This document shows positions 10,449 to 18,680 of a DNA stretch of 33,574 nt, piece after piece. Under the pieces are notes generated by a model. It was given only the letters and a program-made list of their open reading frames with translations. It ran no database searches and was not told the DNA's origin. How positions within the stretch are numbered: position 1 is the stretch's first letter; every line of letters starts with the position of its first letter. Origin of the DNA: Candidatus Omnitrophota bacterium (GTDB taxonomy: Bacteria > Omnitrophota > Gorgyraeia > Duberdicusellales > 4484-171); the NCBI GenBank assembly GCA_023135905.1, contig JAGLSE010000022.1, positions 1 through 33,574 of the forward strand. Reading direction: 5' to 3'. Made by a program: the position numbers and the translations under genes.

Positions 10449-11990
10449 TTATTCCCATTCAATTGTTGCCGGAGGTTTAGAACTTATATCTAAAACTACT
10501 CTATTAACTCCTCTTACTTTATTAATAATCGAGTTAGAAATCTCGTTTAAGACTAAAAAAGGTATCTTTGACCAATCTGCGGTCATTCCGTCTATACTGC
10601 TTACAGCACGAACAGCAATAACATATTCATATGTGCGCTTATCTCCCATAACACCAACAGTTTTTAACGGTAATAAAACACAAAATGATTGCCAGATATC
10701 TTGATATAAACCATTTTTCTTTATTATTTTCTCTAAAATAGCATCTGCCTCTCTCAAAATTTTAAGTTGTGAAGGAATTACCTCACCTATAACCCTTATC
10801 GCCAAACCCGGACCAGGAAACGGATGTCTATTTATAATATAGTCAGGCATTTCTAAAATTTTAGCTATTTCTCTTACTTCATCTTTAAATAACTGGCGAA
10901 AAGGTTCTATCAAATTCAATTTCATATTTTCAGGAAGACCACCAACATTATGATGAGACTTTATACAAGCTGTAGGACCTCCAAAAAAAGAAACTGATTC
11001 TATAACATCAGGATAAAGCGTTCCTTGAACTAAAAATTCCACGTTTTTTATTTTTGAAGCTTCATCATCAAATACTTTAATAAACTCATGTCCGATTATC
11101 TTTCTTTTTTGTTCAGGATCAACCACCCCTTTTAATTTTGATAAAAATGATTTTGAGGCATCAACATAATGAAAATCTATTTTTGAATTGTTACCAAAAT
11201 TTTTTATAACTTGCTGAGCTTCTCCTTTTCTCAACACACCATTATTAACGAAAATACATTTAAGTTTTTTACCAATCGCTTTACTTAATAAAACGGCTGC
11301 GGTAGATGAATCTACTCCTCCGCTTAATCCGCAAATAACATTTTTGTTGCCAACTTTTTTTCTAATCTCAGAAATCTGTTCGCTAATAAAGTCTTCCAAT
11401 TGCCAATTAGCAAAACAATCACATATTTTAAATAAAAAATTAGAAAGTACTTGTATTCCCAAATCAGTATGAACGACTTCAGGATGGAATTGAACACCGT
11501 AAATATTTTTATCTAAATCTCCTATAGAAGCATATTTGGTATTAACAGTATGCGCTAAGACAATAAATCCTTTAGGAAGTTTTACTACTTGGTCAGTATG
11601 ACTCATCCATGAAACAATTTTAGCCGGCATAGCATAAAATAGATTATTATGGTCATCTATATACATCTCTGCTCTTCCATATTCTCTTTCTTTTGATTCA
11701 ATTACTTTACCTTTTAAATTTTTAACCAATATCTGCATTCCATAACAAATTCCTAATATAGGAATACCTAATTCCAGAATTTCCTTATTTAAGGAAGGTG
11801 CATTTTTTTCATAAACACTATGAGGGCCGCCGGAAAGGATTATTCCTTTAGGATTTATTTTTTTAATTTTATTTATATCAACAGTACAGGGTTCTATAAC
11901 GCTAAATACTTTAAGTTCTCTTATTCTCCGGGCAATCAATTGGGTATATTGAGAACCAAAATCCATAATTAAAATAGTATCTTTTATCAT
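10449..11990 (-). CDS. guaA: GMP synthase (glutamine-hydrolysing)
   Basis: Converts XMP to GMP using ATP and glutamine, in the cytosol. The 513 residues are the standard two-domain length. The class I glutamine amidotransferase half has C82 in LGICYGMQ, plus H169 and E171 in QFHPEV. The ATP-pyrophosphatase half starts with the PP-loop SGGVDSS (223-229). It ends with the dimerisation domain and the usual PPATIEWE terminus. The Shine-Dalgarno GGAG lies nine bases before the ATG. It is on the same strand downstream of guaB3 but separated by 630 bases of repeats, so a separate promoter is likely although none was identified. Confidence 0.98.
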
Positions 11991-12622: not shown

Positions 12623-13783
12623 TTACTTTCCCATACCCACTCGCTGTGTGGCTTGGAATATTTTACCTTCTGTTTGTATTGAAGGTGCAATTATAATCTC
12701 TACAAAATGCATATCTTTTATCGCGTGTGCTCCTAAAGCCCCCATTGAAGTTTTCAAAGCTCCCATTAAATTCTGAGAACCGTCGTCTACTAATGCCGGA
12801 CCAAAAAGTATTTGTTCCAAACTACCGGTTATACCAACTTCTATTCTTGTGCCACGTGGTAAATTTCCGTGTGAGGTTGCCATACCCCAGTGAAAACCTC
12901 TTCCCGGAGCTTCTTTTGCTCTGGCAAATGCTGAACCTATCATAACTGCATTTGCACCACAGGCAAAAGCTTTACAAACATCCCCTCCTTTACTCATACC
13001 ACCATCTGTAATTATAGATATATATTTGCCTGTTTTTTGATAATAAAAATCTCGAGCAGCTGCACAATCTATAGTTGAAGTTACCTGAGGAACACCTATT
13101 CCTAATACACCTCTTGTTGTACAAGCGGCACCCGGCCCTACACCGACTAAAAGGCCAGAACATCCTGTTTCCATTAATTCTAACGCGCCCTCATAAGTTA
13201 CACAATTCCCAATAATTACAGGTATCTTTAAGCTTTGACAAAATTTTGCTAAATCTAAAGGGATATATTTTTTAGAGATATGCCTGGCTGTTGTAACTGT
13301 AGATTGTAAAACAAAACAATCCGCGCCTGCTTCTTCTGCCAAAGAAGCAAATTTCACAGCGTTCTGAGGAATACAACTAACTGCGGCATAACCGCCGGAT
13401 TTCTTAATTTCGTCCACTCTTTTGGAAACTAAATTTTCTTTTATAGGAGCAGTATATAATTTTTGAATTAATTTTGTGGATTCATCTTTATTGGCATTAG
13501 ATATTTCTTTTAAAACTTCATCGGGATTATCATAACGTGTTTGTACGCCATCTAAATTTAATACTCCAATACCCCCTAATTTTGACATTTTACCAGCAAA
13601 ATCAGTTCCAACAACTCCATCCATTGCTGCCGCAAATATAGGAACAGAAAAGGTCTTTCCGCCAAATTCCCATGAAGTTTCAACTTCTTCCGGATTTATT
13701 GTTGCTTTACCCGGAACAAGCGCTATCTCATCAAATCCATAACATCTACGTGCGCGTTTACCTATGCCAATCCACTCTGCCAT
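12623..13783 (-). CDS. GuaB3-type IMP dehydrogenase/GMP reductase family protein
   Basis: A 386-residue TIM-barrel protein of the IMPDH/GMPR superfamily with no CBS (Bateman) domains. The catalytic loop GPGAACTTR (216-224) carries the nucleophile C221. The phosphate-binding DGGM is at 260-263 and GSAFARAKEAPGRG at 283-296. The region GFHWGMATSHGNLPRG (296-311) replaces the canonical flap, as in the GuaB3 group of actinobacteria and cyanobacteria. A cyanobacterial GuaB3 has been reported to act as a GMP reductase, so the direction (IMP to XMP, or GMP to IMP) is open. The Shine-Dalgarno GGAGGG lies in the end of the upstream FAD gene, which overlaps by 22 bases. guaA is the next gene downstream. 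Confidence 0.85.
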   Translation of the reverse strand: MAEWIGIGKRARRCYGFDEIALVPGKATINPEEVETSWEFGGKTFSVPIFAAAMDGVVGTDFAGKMSKLGGIGVLNLDGVQTRYDNPDEVLKEISNANKDESTKLIQKLYTAPIKENLVSKRVDEIKKSGGYAAVSCIPQNAVKFASLAEEAGADCFVLQSTVTTARHISKKYIPLDLAKFCQSLKIPVIIGNCVTYEGALELMETGCSGLLVGVGPGAACTTRGVLGIGVPQVTSTIDCAAARDFYYQKTGKYISIITDGGMSKGGDVCKAFACGANAVMIGSAFARAKEAPGRGFHWGMATSHGNLPRGTRIEVGITGSLEQILFGPALVDDGSQNLMGALKTSMGALGAHAIKDMHFVEIIIAPSIQTEGKIFQATQRVGMGK

Positions 13784-14730
13784 AATTCTCCCTCCTTAAA
13801 AATGTTATCAATAATCTTTTTAATGTTATTTCCATCAATATCAGGTCTAATATATTCAGGAGTTATCCCATCGCTAAAAAAATCTGCTAATACCGCTCCT
13901 TGTTTTTTTGCTTCTTGAAAGTTAGAAACAAAAAATAACTCATTTTCAATCCCTAATTTATTAACGTCTCCTAATAAATAAACGTTTTCGTAATCTGTAA
14001 AAAAAGTATCTTTTATTACAATATCTTCACCAAAAAAATGATTGTTTGGAATAAAACCGCTATCTATAAAAATCAATTGTGACGGAAAAACTTTTAAAGG
14101 TAAAATCTTTGTTGCTTTAAGAATACCTTCGCCGACAGCTTCTTCAATAATCGAGTTTATATACACCCCTATACCTTTAGCCTTTAATGCCTCTATAACC
14201 GTTAATTCATACTCACCTAGAAAATTAAAATTCGCTGATACTACTCTCACTTCTTTACCTAATTTTTTTAAGGCTAATGAAAGTTCAATCCCAACAAATG
14301 TCGTAACATTTACTGCAATATCTGAAGAAATCTTTAATAAACTTCTTAAATTCCCCGGAGTAATATCTGAAAGATAAAAGAACCCTTCTCTATGTTCACC
14401 TTTTATCTCTATTTTTTTAGACTTCACTCCTGAAGCTAACACCAATTCTTCAAAATCTCGTGTTTCTCCTTGTTTTAAATAAATTTTCCCTCGTTTAATA
14501 TTTATTTTTTCAACTTTGTCCTTAATAAATTTAACTTTATTCTTTTCCGCCCAATCTGCGAGTTTTATTCTATTACTAAATTTTCCTGGTACAATTAATA
14601 ATTCATTTTTGTAAAAGTTGTAATCGTTAATATCTATAAGTGTTATTCGACAGTCTATATTTTTTTCTCTAATTTGTTCGATTAAAGTAAATCCTGAAAT
14701 ACCCCCACCTATTACTGTTATGTCTTTCAT
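13762..14730 (-). CDS. FAD-dependent pyridine-nucleotide-disulphide-type oxidoreductase, divergent
   Basis: A 322-residue flavoprotein related to type-II NADH dehydrogenases. The FAD-binding Rossmann motif GGGISG is at 8-13, an ASG at 99-101 and the second FAD motif YLLGD at 251-255. The usual second Rossmann glycine motif for NAD(P)H, expected around 139-149, reads VNVTTFVGIEL and lacks the GxGxxG. NAD(P)H binding may therefore be lost or altered. It has no redox CxxC and no C-terminal membrane anchor. The gene lies 14 bases after folD and overlaps guaB3 by 22 bases, so it is cotranscribed with folate and purine genes. The substrate is unknown. A role in re-oxidising or reducing a folate or purine intermediate is speculation from context. 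Confidence 0.75.
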   Translation of the reverse strand: MKDITVIGGGISGFTLIEQIREKNIDCRITLIDINDYNFYKNELLIVPGKFSNRIKLADWAEKNKVKFIKDKVEKINIKRGKIYLKQGETRDFEELVLASGVKSKKIEIKGEHREGFFYLSDITPGNLRSLLKISSDIAVNVTTFVGIELSLALKKLGKEVRVVSANFNFLGEYELTVIEALKAKGIGVYINSIIEEAVGEGILKATKILPLKVFPSQLIFIDSGFIPNNHFFGEDIVIKDTFFTDYENVYLLGDVNKLGIENELFFVSNFQEAKKQGAVLADFFSDGITPEYIRPDIDGNNIKKIIDNIFKEGELWQSGLA

Positions 14731-14744
14731 AATCTTTATATTTT

Positions 14745-15617
14745 TTAATGTTTCTGTTCTAAGGAAGTTTGAATCTCGGAACTTATTATTAAATTATTAT
14801 AGAGAAACATTGTAGTAAGCCTGCCGACACCTCCGGGAACCGGAGTAATAAAAGAAGCTTTACTCTTTGCTGTTTCAAATTCTATATCACCTGTAAGTTT
14901 TCCATTTTTTTCGCCAGTTCCAACATCTATAACTATTGCGCCTTCTTTTATCCATTCTCCTTTTATAAGATAAGGTTGGCCGACTGATGAAATAACAATA
15001 TCCGCATTTTTGACAAAAAAAGGAAGATCTCCTTTTTCAAATGTCCCTATATGGGTTATGCTAACTGTTGCTAATCTTTTACCTAAAAACAAAGCTAAAG
15101 GTTTTCCTATCAATGAAGAAAACCCTACAATTGTAATTCTTTTACCTTTATATTTATTTACGTCTTTTTCTAAACTAATATCCAATAATTTAATAATACT
15201 TCTTACTGTCGGAGAAACAATATCATCTTTGCCCATAAAAAACTTACCTAAATTAGCAGGATGCATACCTTCTATATCTTTAAATTCATCTATCTGAGCA
15301 AAAACAGCCTCATCTTTCCATCCTTTTGGGAAAGGTTTATTAAAAATAATGCCTGATATTTTTTTGTCATTATTTAATTTTACTACTTCGGCTTTGAAAT
15401 CATCAAAAGAAACTGTTTCTTTTAAATCTATTGGTACATATTTGATGCCCAACTTATCGGCAACTTTTTTTTGTGAAATTCTATATACTTTAGTTGAATA
15501 ATTGCTGCCTATCGCCAAGGAAGCCAGACATAATTTATTAGGAAGATTTTTTAATCTTTCTATATTTTCTTGTTCTAAAATATTACAAATTTCTCTAGAA
15601 TCTAATATTTTTGCCAT
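14745..15617 (-). CDS. folD: FolD-family methylenetetrahydrofolate dehydrogenase, probably without cyclohydrolase activity
   Basis: A 290-residue FolD homologue. FolD normally oxidises 5,10-methylene-THF to methenyl-THF and hydrolyses that to 10-formyl-THF. The Rossmann motif GFSSLIGKP (165-173), HP.N.G (119-124) and PGGVG (261-265) are clear. The shared active-site residues have changed. The catalytic Lys of YxxxK is Gln (Y45, Q49), the Gln of VQLP is Asn (N93 in IFNKPFP), and the second Asp of KDVDG is Glu (E116 in KDIEG). In the human enzyme the equivalents K56, Q100 and D125 are tied mainly to cyclohydrolase chemistry. The gene overlaps fchA by 16 bases, so a partner cyclohydrolase is at hand. 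Dehydrogenase-only function is inferred. Confidence 0.88.
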   Translation of the reverse strand: MAKILDSREICNILEQENIERLKNLPNKLCLASLAIGSNYSTKVYRISQKKVADKLGIKYVPIDLKETVSFDDFKAEVVKLNNDKKISGIIFNKPFPKGWKDEAVFAQIDEFKDIEGMHPANLGKFFMGKDDIVSPTVRSIIKLLDISLEKDVNKYKGKRITIVGFSSLIGKPLALFLGKRLATVSITHIGTFEKGDLPFFVKNADIVISSVGQPYLIKGEWIKEGAIVIDVGTGEKNGKLTGDIEFETAKSKASFITPVPGGVGRLTTMFLYNNLIISSEIQTSLEQKH

Positions 15618-16156
15618 TTATTCAAACTTTTTTTAAATTTATTTATAGATTTGTTTTTTTTACCAGAAATTTTACTATTTGCTTCTAAATTTAAAATACA
15701 CCCTAATAAAGCTGTGCGGACTAATTCCAAGCCTATAATGAAATCACTTTCTATACTCTTTTTTATACCAGATTCTATCTTCTTAGCAAGGCAAAACATA
15801 TTTTCACATGCCGTAGCCACTTCATATATAATAAATTCACTTTGTTCGATAAATTGTTCTTTCTTTTCTCCTTTTGTCTTTATAATTTTTTCAAATATAT
15901 ATCCGTCTTTATCAATGTAAGGAAAAACTCCCTTTTTTAAGGTTTGCAGTTCTATAATTGTTGTTTTGAGTTTTTTATTATGAATTATAGTTTTTTTATC
16001 ATTTTTCTTTAAATTTAATGAATAATTCACCGCTTTTTCCATCAAACTAGCTCCCATACAAAAAGCGACACAAACAGCGCTCCCTCCTCCTGGAGAAGGT
16101 TCTCTCTTACCTAAATCATGAATATAGTCTTTAAAATTACTTTTATATTTCTTCAT
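15602..16156 (-). CDS. fchA: FchA-like methenyl-THF cyclohydrolase / formimidoyl-THF cyclodeaminase
   Basis: About 184 residues of the cyclodeaminase (FTCD C-terminal) family, an all-helical fold. The N-terminal signature PSPGGGSAVCVAFCMGASL is clear. The family either deaminates formimidoyl-THF in histidine or purine breakdown, or, as in Methylobacterium FchA, hydrolyses methenyl-THF to formyl-THF. No glutamate formiminotransferase domain is attached. The tight coupling to folD favours the cyclohydrolase role. I chose the ATG at 16156. The frame can be extended three codons to a TTG at 16165, but no Shine-Dalgarno supports either. The gene overlaps the end of yraN by 14 bases. Confidence 0.87.
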   Translation of the reverse strand: MKKYKSNFKDYIHDLGKREPSPGGGSAVCVAFCMGASLMEKAVNYSLNLKKNDKKTIIHNKKLKTTIIELQTLKKGVFPYIDKDGYIFEKIIKTKGEKKEQFIEQSEFIIYEVATACENMFCLAKKIESGIKKSIESDFIIGLELVRTALLGCILNLEANSKISGKKNKSINKFKKSLNKWQKY

Positions 16157-16496
16157 ACAAACCAAACGCGTTCTTTATCAAACGAAACTCCCGCCACTGA
16201 TTTCCTTGAATAACCTCTAAAACATCAAATCGATAAAATTCTTCTGGTTTACCGGCTGAATAAAAAAGAGCGGTTTTTCTTATTTTATCTCTTTTTCGTC
16301 TATCCACAGATTCAATCGGTGATAATAAATGATTCTTTTTTCTTGCTCTTATTTCAACAAATGAAAGAAATTTATTATCTCTGGCTATTGTATCTATCTC
16401 TCCAAAACGACTATTAAAATTTTGTTCTAAAATCTTGTAACCCTGTAATCTTAAAAATTCGTTACCCTTTTTTTCGTAATATTTTCCTTTATTCAT
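16143..16496 (-). CDS. yraN: YraN/UPF0102 nuclease-fold protein
   Basis: A 117-residue protein of the UPF0102 family, which has a small restriction-endonuclease-like fold related to Holliday junction resolvases. Its cellular role is not settled. The core motif is seen as GEIDTIARDNKFLSFVEIR. The acidic residues align with the family's E-x-D…E-x-K active site, with Arg in place of the final Lys. Its position after rnhB is a very common arrangement (rnhB-yraN). The end of the gene overlaps the start of fchA, linking the ribosomal and rnhB group to the folate group in one transcript. Confidence 0.88.
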   Translation of the reverse strand: MNKGKYYEKKGNEFLRLQGYKILEQNFNSRFGEIDTIARDNKFLSFVEIRARKKNHLLSPIESVDRRKRDKIRKTALFYSAGKPEEFYRFDVLEVIQGNQWREFRLIKNAFGLYEEI

Positions 16497-17798: not shown

Positions 17799-18614
17799 TT
17801 ACTTCTTAAAATCCTTTTTCTCGTTTAACAAATCCGGCCTCCTTTTTTTTGTTAATTCAAAAGCTTTATCTTTTCTCCATTTTTCAATATCTTTATGATT
17901 CCCTGAAATTAATATATCAGGGACTTTTAACCCGCAAAATTCTGCAGGTCTTGTATAATGAGGAAAATCTAAAAGTGAATTTTCAAAACTCTCGTTTTTT
18001 ATAGAATTTTTATCGGATACAACTCCCGGTATAAGTCTTACCAATGAATCGATAAAAACCATAGCTGGAAGTTCTCCTCCGCTTAAAACATAATCTCCTA
18101 TAGAAATCTCTTCATCTACCAGATATTCTCTCACCCGTTCGTCTACACCTTCATAACGAGGAGCAATTAAAATTAATTTTTCATAACTCAAAAATTTATT
18201 CATCATTTTCTGGTTTAATTTTTTACCTTTTGGACTAAAAAGTATGGTTCGTTTCGTTTTATCCTTAATCTTGTTCTCATAAAACTCATTAAAACTATCT
18301 TTAGTTAAATTTCTCGGTTTATCCACACCTTTAGTCTTTGGTCTTGAAACTTTCATATTTATACCTTTTACTAATATTTTTTTCTCATTATTTAGTATAG
18401 ATTTAATAGACTCAAATAAAGGGTCTATTTTGAAAACCATGCCTCCTCCTCCATAGGAGGGTGAATCGACCTTCTTATGTATATTTGAAGAATAATCTCT
18501 AAGGTCATGTATATTTATTTTTACTAATCCTTTAGCCCGACCTCTCTTTATAATTGATTCTCCGATAACCGGGATGAACATCTCAGGGAAAATAGTTATT
18601 ACATCTATTATCAT
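17799..18614 (-). CDS. trmD: tRNA (guanine-37-N1) methyltransferase TrmD with an insert
   Basis: Methylates G37 of tRNAs reading CCN, CUN and CGG codons, preventing +1 frameshifts, as a SPOUT-fold dimer. I chose the ATG at 18614 (MIIDVITIFPEMF). The reading frame extends upstream only through a palindromic repeat. Key blocks are SYGGGGMVFK, APRYEGVDERV with catalytic Arg and Asp, and the knot region SIGDYVLSGGELPAM. The protein has 271 residues, about 25 more than typical. An additional Lys/Asn-rich stretch of about 40 residues (80-120, 18255-18377) lies between the ESIKSI helix and the RTILFSPKG strand. The usual upstream neighbours rpsP and rimM are absent, and tgt is upstream instead. Confidence 0.95.
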   Translation of the reverse strand: MIIDVITIFPEMFIPVIGESIIKRGRAKGLVKINIHDLRDYSSNIHKKVDSPSYGGGGMVFKIDPLFESIKSILNNEKKILVKGINMKVSRPKTKGVDKPRNLTKDSFNEFYENKIKDKTKRTILFSPKGKKLNQKMMNKFLSYEKLILIAPRYEGVDERVREYLVDEEISIGDYVLSGGELPAMVFIDSLVRLIPGVVSDKNSIKNESFENSLLDFPHYTRPAEFCGLKVPDILISGNHKDIEKWRKDKAFELTKKRRPDLLNEKKDFKK

Positions 18615-18637
18615 TTTATTTTCTGACTTCTGACTAC

Positions 18638-18680
18638 CCTGCCTACCGGCAGACAGGCGGACAGACACAGTGCTCTGTCC
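18638..18680. repeat. compound palindromic repeat upstream of trmD
   Basis: Two adjacent hairpins. CCTGCCTACCGGCAGACAGG (18638-18657) is near-palindromic. GGACAGA/TCTGTCC (18659-18680) has inner CAC/GTG pairs. They sit between the tgt stop and the trmD ATG and happen to be open in the trmD frame, giving a false N-terminal extension (VRLSAGRQG). Similar palindromes are spread through this window. Confidence 0.65.

Follow-up and report, generated by a model that had tools for sequence, protein, structure and literature searches.

The window, a stretch of 33,574 nucleotides from a Candidatus Omnitrophota bacterium, carries on its reverse strand a putative folate gene pair, folD and fchA. The folD gene (14745-15617, minus strand, ATG at 15617) encodes a 290-aa protein predicted to be a monofunctional (NAD-type) methylene-THF dehydrogenase, and fchA (15602-16156, minus strand) encodes a predicted methenyl-THF cyclohydrolase of the FTCD_C family (184 aa from ATG; PF04961, 72.2 bits). 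As called, the fchA open frame starts at a TTG at 16165; the ATG start was taken for the interval given here. The 16-bp overlap between the end of fchA and the start of folD described in the first-pass annotation is present at 15602-15617 (minus strand), and because fchA from its ATG also overlaps the upstream yraN by 14 bp, this gene run is tightly packed. Directly after folD lies an FAD/NAD(P)-linked oxidoreductase of the Pyr_redox_2 type (13762-14730, minus strand), which may be a redox partner. Most genomes of the window's family have the same neighbor directly 3' of folD, as does G036, a relative without Fhs and with PurU; it is weak or missing in Fhs-bearing relatives. A GuaB3-type IMP dehydrogenase-related protein (12623-13783, minus strand) adjoins the folate genes and GMP synthase lies downstream (10449-11990), so that purine genes stand close to the formyl-THF source. 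On the other side, the TrmD protein (17799-18668, minus strand) has an unusual length of 289 aa, and its match to the Pfam model is divided into two parts, which suggests an insertion or an N-terminal extension.

FolD matches both Pfam domains above cut-off (PF02882, 157.7 bits; PF00763, 64.4 bits), and the top PDB matches of its AF2 model (pLDDT 95.9) are all FolD or MTHFD enzymes (TM 0.81-0.91), placing it in the FolD/MTHFD fold family. Its best NCBIfam FolD equivalog model reaches 216.6 bits against a cut-off of 392. The fold and the folate and nucleotide domains are common to the bifunctional E. coli FolD (1b0a), but Lys54, Gln98 and Asp121 of that enzyme are all changed and the NADP ligands are lost. 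A remote sequence match (E 3e-10) was also obtained with 1edz, yeast Mtd1, a eukaryotic FolD-fold dehydrogenase that is reported to be NAD-dependent and monofunctional, without cyclohydrolase. FchA has the FTCD_C domain and the FchA fold (AF2 model pLDDT 96.3), and it retains the GGGS motif and the family's invariant Asp and Asn residues. Its PDB match with the best E-value is 7vg4, the methenyl-THF cyclohydrolase FchA of Methylobacterium extorquens; 1o5h and 1tt9 give TM-scores similar to or above that of 7vg4. Against the NCBIfam FchA equivalog it scores 32.4 bits (cut-off 275), the window's family being divergent.

When the window's FolD is aligned by phmmer with 1b0a, the E. coli enzyme, the alignment is free of gaps from GSN through KD(V/I)(D/E)G, and the three replacements proposed by eye in the first-pass annotation are all found. 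Gln49 (codon 15471-15473, minus strand) stands in place of the catalytic Lys of the YxxxK motif that characterizes bifunctional FolDs (E. coli Lys54, human Lys56), Asn93 (15339-15341, minus strand) in place of E. coli Gln98 (human Gln100), and Glu116 (15270-15272, minus strand) in place of E. coli Asp121 (human Asp125). Gln49, Glu116 and Tyr45 are invariant in 50/50 aligned FolDs of the class (the window's and those of 49 relatives), an alignment that omits one class member, G045, whose FolD reads Y-L-F with a gapped loop. The Asn93 position is variable: within the window's family it is occupied by N or H, and most of the other families in the class have Q there. The Lys-to-Gln and Asp-to-Glu changes are thus old and fixed, and the Gln-to-Asn change is a later, family-level one. 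Lys50 or Lys51 had been named as residues that might occupy the catalytic position instead, an alternative that fails on the alignment: position 50 varies (K/Q/E/R/A/M), and the E. coli counterpart of Lys51 is Lys56, a site already basic in canonical FolDs.

The expected effect of these changes can be judged from published enzymes. In E. coli FolD, the K54N mutant has undetectable cyclohydrolase and about 19% of dehydrogenase activity, and Q98H retains about 8% of dehydrogenase and an estimated 1% of cyclohydrolase (PMC5688156). Of the residues for which a link to cyclohydrolase chemistry had been proposed, human Asp125 instead binds the pterin head group (PMC3368264); for this reason, the Asp-to-Glu change is better regarded as a conserved co-change or co-adaptation than as a cyclohydrolase loss by itself. 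The suggestion that changes at the Lys spare the dehydrogenase does not hold in E. coli, where this activity is lowered both in K54N and in Q98H (PMC5688156). In a natural enzyme with co-adapted residues, the effect on the dehydrogenase may be unlike that in the E. coli mutants. The cofactor pocket is also altered. Ligands of the NADP 2'-phosphate in the human enzyme include Arg173 and Ser197 (PMC3368264), and two of the three such ligands are replaced in the window's FolD, by Phe166 (codon 15120-15122, minus strand) and Ile190 (15048-15050, minus strand), respectively. As in NAD-dependent MTHFD enzymes, both ligands are lost, and NAD+ is therefore the likely cofactor predicted from the sequence. 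Across the sampled FolDs with Gln and Glu at E. coli positions 54 and 121 (Q/E FolDs), His/Phe and Ile/His predominate at the two ligand positions; in Lys-type FolDs, Arg and Ser are retained in most cases.

At the genome scale, folD and fchA lie no more than 2 kb apart in 51 of the 53 relatives with FolD, the exceptions being G021, where the genes are on two contigs, and G043, where they are well apart. FchA is retained in all 35 low-contamination relatives whose completeness is 90% or higher. A second FolD, which would have spoken against a division of the reaction, was not found in a search of the window's genome (92.5% complete), and this genome encodes three enzymes that use 10-formyl-THF, namely PurN, Fmt and PurU. 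No match to Fhs (PF01268) was obtained in the window's genome (about 92.5% complete) or in the 34 other genomes of its family (0/34), and PurU is present in the window's genome and in 20/20 sampled of those 34. PurU also occurs in G036 and G057, both without Fhs. The other relatives include 17 with Fhs, for which the gene order is usually fhs-fchA-folD, and the second formyltransferases examined in Fhs-bearing relatives (those fetched) were all Fmt-like; in G050, which lacks Fhs, the formyltransferase examined is Fmt. In Notoacmeibacter (L089) purU is flanked by one folD of the Lys type and one of the Gln type, and on one Omnitrophota contig (L146) the order is purU-fchA-folD, with purU in the place of fhs. 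With one FolD, no Fhs and three users of the product, FolD and FchA together are probably the cell's sole source of 10-formyl-THF, and the replacement of Fhs by PurU points the same way.

On a wider scale, about 85,000 species genomes were scanned with a degenerate-codon pattern, which gave at least 117 Gln54 FolDs from many phyla; all listed matches are true FolDs, and 109 of the 117 listed also have Glu121. These Q/E FolDs form one branch, which includes sequences from Omnitrophota, Planctomycetota, Alphaproteobacteria and others. Among 50 sampled genomes with a Gln54 FolD outside Omnitrophota, FchA is present in 29 and a Lys54 FolD in 17 of the 21 others, so that 46/50 have one or the other. 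Both occur together in 4 of the 29 FchA-bearing genomes, counting the tandem Lys FolD of G105 (L159), and canonical FolD and FchA are mutually avoiding in this sample (Fisher p 2e-6, uncorrected for kinship). Neither FchA nor a Lys FolD was found in the draft genomes G071, G074 and G076, nor in G058, which has two Gln54 FolDs. The first-pass annotation had asked whether the substitutions go together with an adjacent fchA, and this is borne out among the relatives (51/53) but not outside Omnitrophota, where fchA is often elsewhere or replaced by a canonical FolD. A strict form of this association, with the substitutions found only alongside an adjacent fchA, was rejected, as FchA is encoded elsewhere in Planctomycetota and a canonical FolD is present instead in Alphaproteobacteria. 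In the latter, fhs often precedes a tandem pair of folD genes, of which one is Gln-type and the other Lys-type (L151, L156, L179, L183, L191, L114, L132), an arrangement that suggests paralogues dividing labour.

In a tree of FolDs built with the trait columns left out, the Q/E FolDs are set apart on one side with a support of 94, and the Lys-less FolDs of Clostridia group with the canonical enzymes. At minimum, this tree requires two changes at Lys54, so the associations described here are strong by count and rest on few independent events; for a sister-pair co-evolution test, the tree holds too few events of Lys loss. The clostridial FolDs beside fchA lost the Lys separately from the Q/E branch. 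Among 245 genomes from the class to which Clostridium cadaveris belongs, 3/85 with FchA show the canonical-Lys pattern, versus 44/160 without FchA (p 1e-6), and in 20 clostridial regions examined none of the eight FolDs near fchA has the Lys, Ala, Val or Ile standing in its place. The Gln pattern is found in four clostridial genomes, all with FchA, a low number because other FolDs near fchA carry Ala, Val or Ile. The clostridial FolDs next to fchA further differ from the window's enzyme in having Phe or Leu at Gln98 and in keeping the Asp.

Separate FolD and FchA enzymes are an established principle in acetogens such as Acetobacterium woodii, in which fhs-fchA-folD are genes of the methyl branch (PMC10472528, PMC6925170). 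The window resembles this module in its separate fchA and folD genes side by side, and the full order is also found in other Omnitrophota families; the window's genome differs in lacking Fhs and in having PurU. FolD and FchA of Clostridium perfringens have reportedly been studied as separate enzymes (by Aluri et al. in 2016), but that organism is said to have Fhs as well, unlike the window's. In Methylobacterium extorquens, the FchA fold (7vg4) and a dehydrogenase-only partner (predicted for the window) are common features; the dehydrogenase there is MtdA and not FolD. The simplest reading of the pair is an acetogen-like module deprived of its ATP-driven entry and now running oxidatively.

We consider it likely that folD and fchA divide the step from methylene-THF via methenyl-THF to 10-formyl-THF and act in the oxidative direction as its sole source, an interpretation that rests on observed residues and their conservation, gene neighborhood, and gene presence and absence. 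FolD, with Gln for the catalytic Lys, would carry out dehydrogenation only, probably with NAD+, and FchA would hydrolyze methenyl-THF. The pair would then supply 10-formyl-THF to PurN and Fmt, and surplus formyl-THF would be converted to formate by PurU. The split proposed in the first-pass annotation is thereby supported: the Lys is lost beside a stand-alone FchA throughout the class, the E. coli mutants agree, Fhs is missing and FolD is single.

It is unlikely, though the best placed of the alternatives, that FolD retains both reactions in a re-arranged site, Gln49 and Glu116 serving for Lys and Asp, with FchA accelerating the reaction or filling another folate role. The strict conservation of both residues is like that of a working site, and methenyl-THF hydrolyzes to some extent without enzyme (PMC5688156), which reduces the catalytic demand and counts against the split. 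However, the Lys is reported to be essential for the E. coli cyclohydrolase (PMC5688156), nearly all genomes with a Q/E FolD have FchA or a Lys FolD, and FchA is consistently retained in the more complete relatives. Somewhat less probable again is that FchA is a formimino-THF cyclodeaminase, methenyl-THF being opened spontaneously or via FolD. The low NCBIfam FchA score counts against the split, as does the common Pfam family, FTCD_C, which includes cyclodeaminases, and the sole PDB sequence match, 1o5h, is annotated as one; but the fold match of best E-value is the M. extorquens cyclohydrolase (with the similar or higher TM-scores of 1o5h and 1tt9 noted above), and fchA adjoins folD, and in relatives fhs as well. 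The order fhs-fchA-folD in relatives would also fit a pair still working reductively, from formate to methylene-THF as in acetogens, which we regard as very improbable given the missing Fhs and the presence of PurU throughout the sampled family.

The split reaction in itself is therefore not new; the novelty lies in how widely a seemingly little-noticed FolD branch extends and in its fixed signature, together with its probable NAD use and the replacement of Fhs by PurU. The wider proposition, in which a broad FolD branch combines fixed Gln54/Glu121 and an NAD-type pocket with an obligate FchA or canonical-FolD partner, and in which the window's family has exchanged Fhs for PurU so that the module is now oxidative and yields NADH, 10-formyl-THF and formate, is one on which we are evenly divided. 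NCBIfam models label FolD as bifunctional. On the basis of residues, partner genes and published mutants, this FolD branch is probably not bifunctional across several phyla, so that metabolic reconstructions for the lineages concerned would miss an essential FchA and may misassign cofactor and direction. A simple rule, that a Lys-less FolD requires FchA or a second FolD, follows from these observations and is cheap to test.
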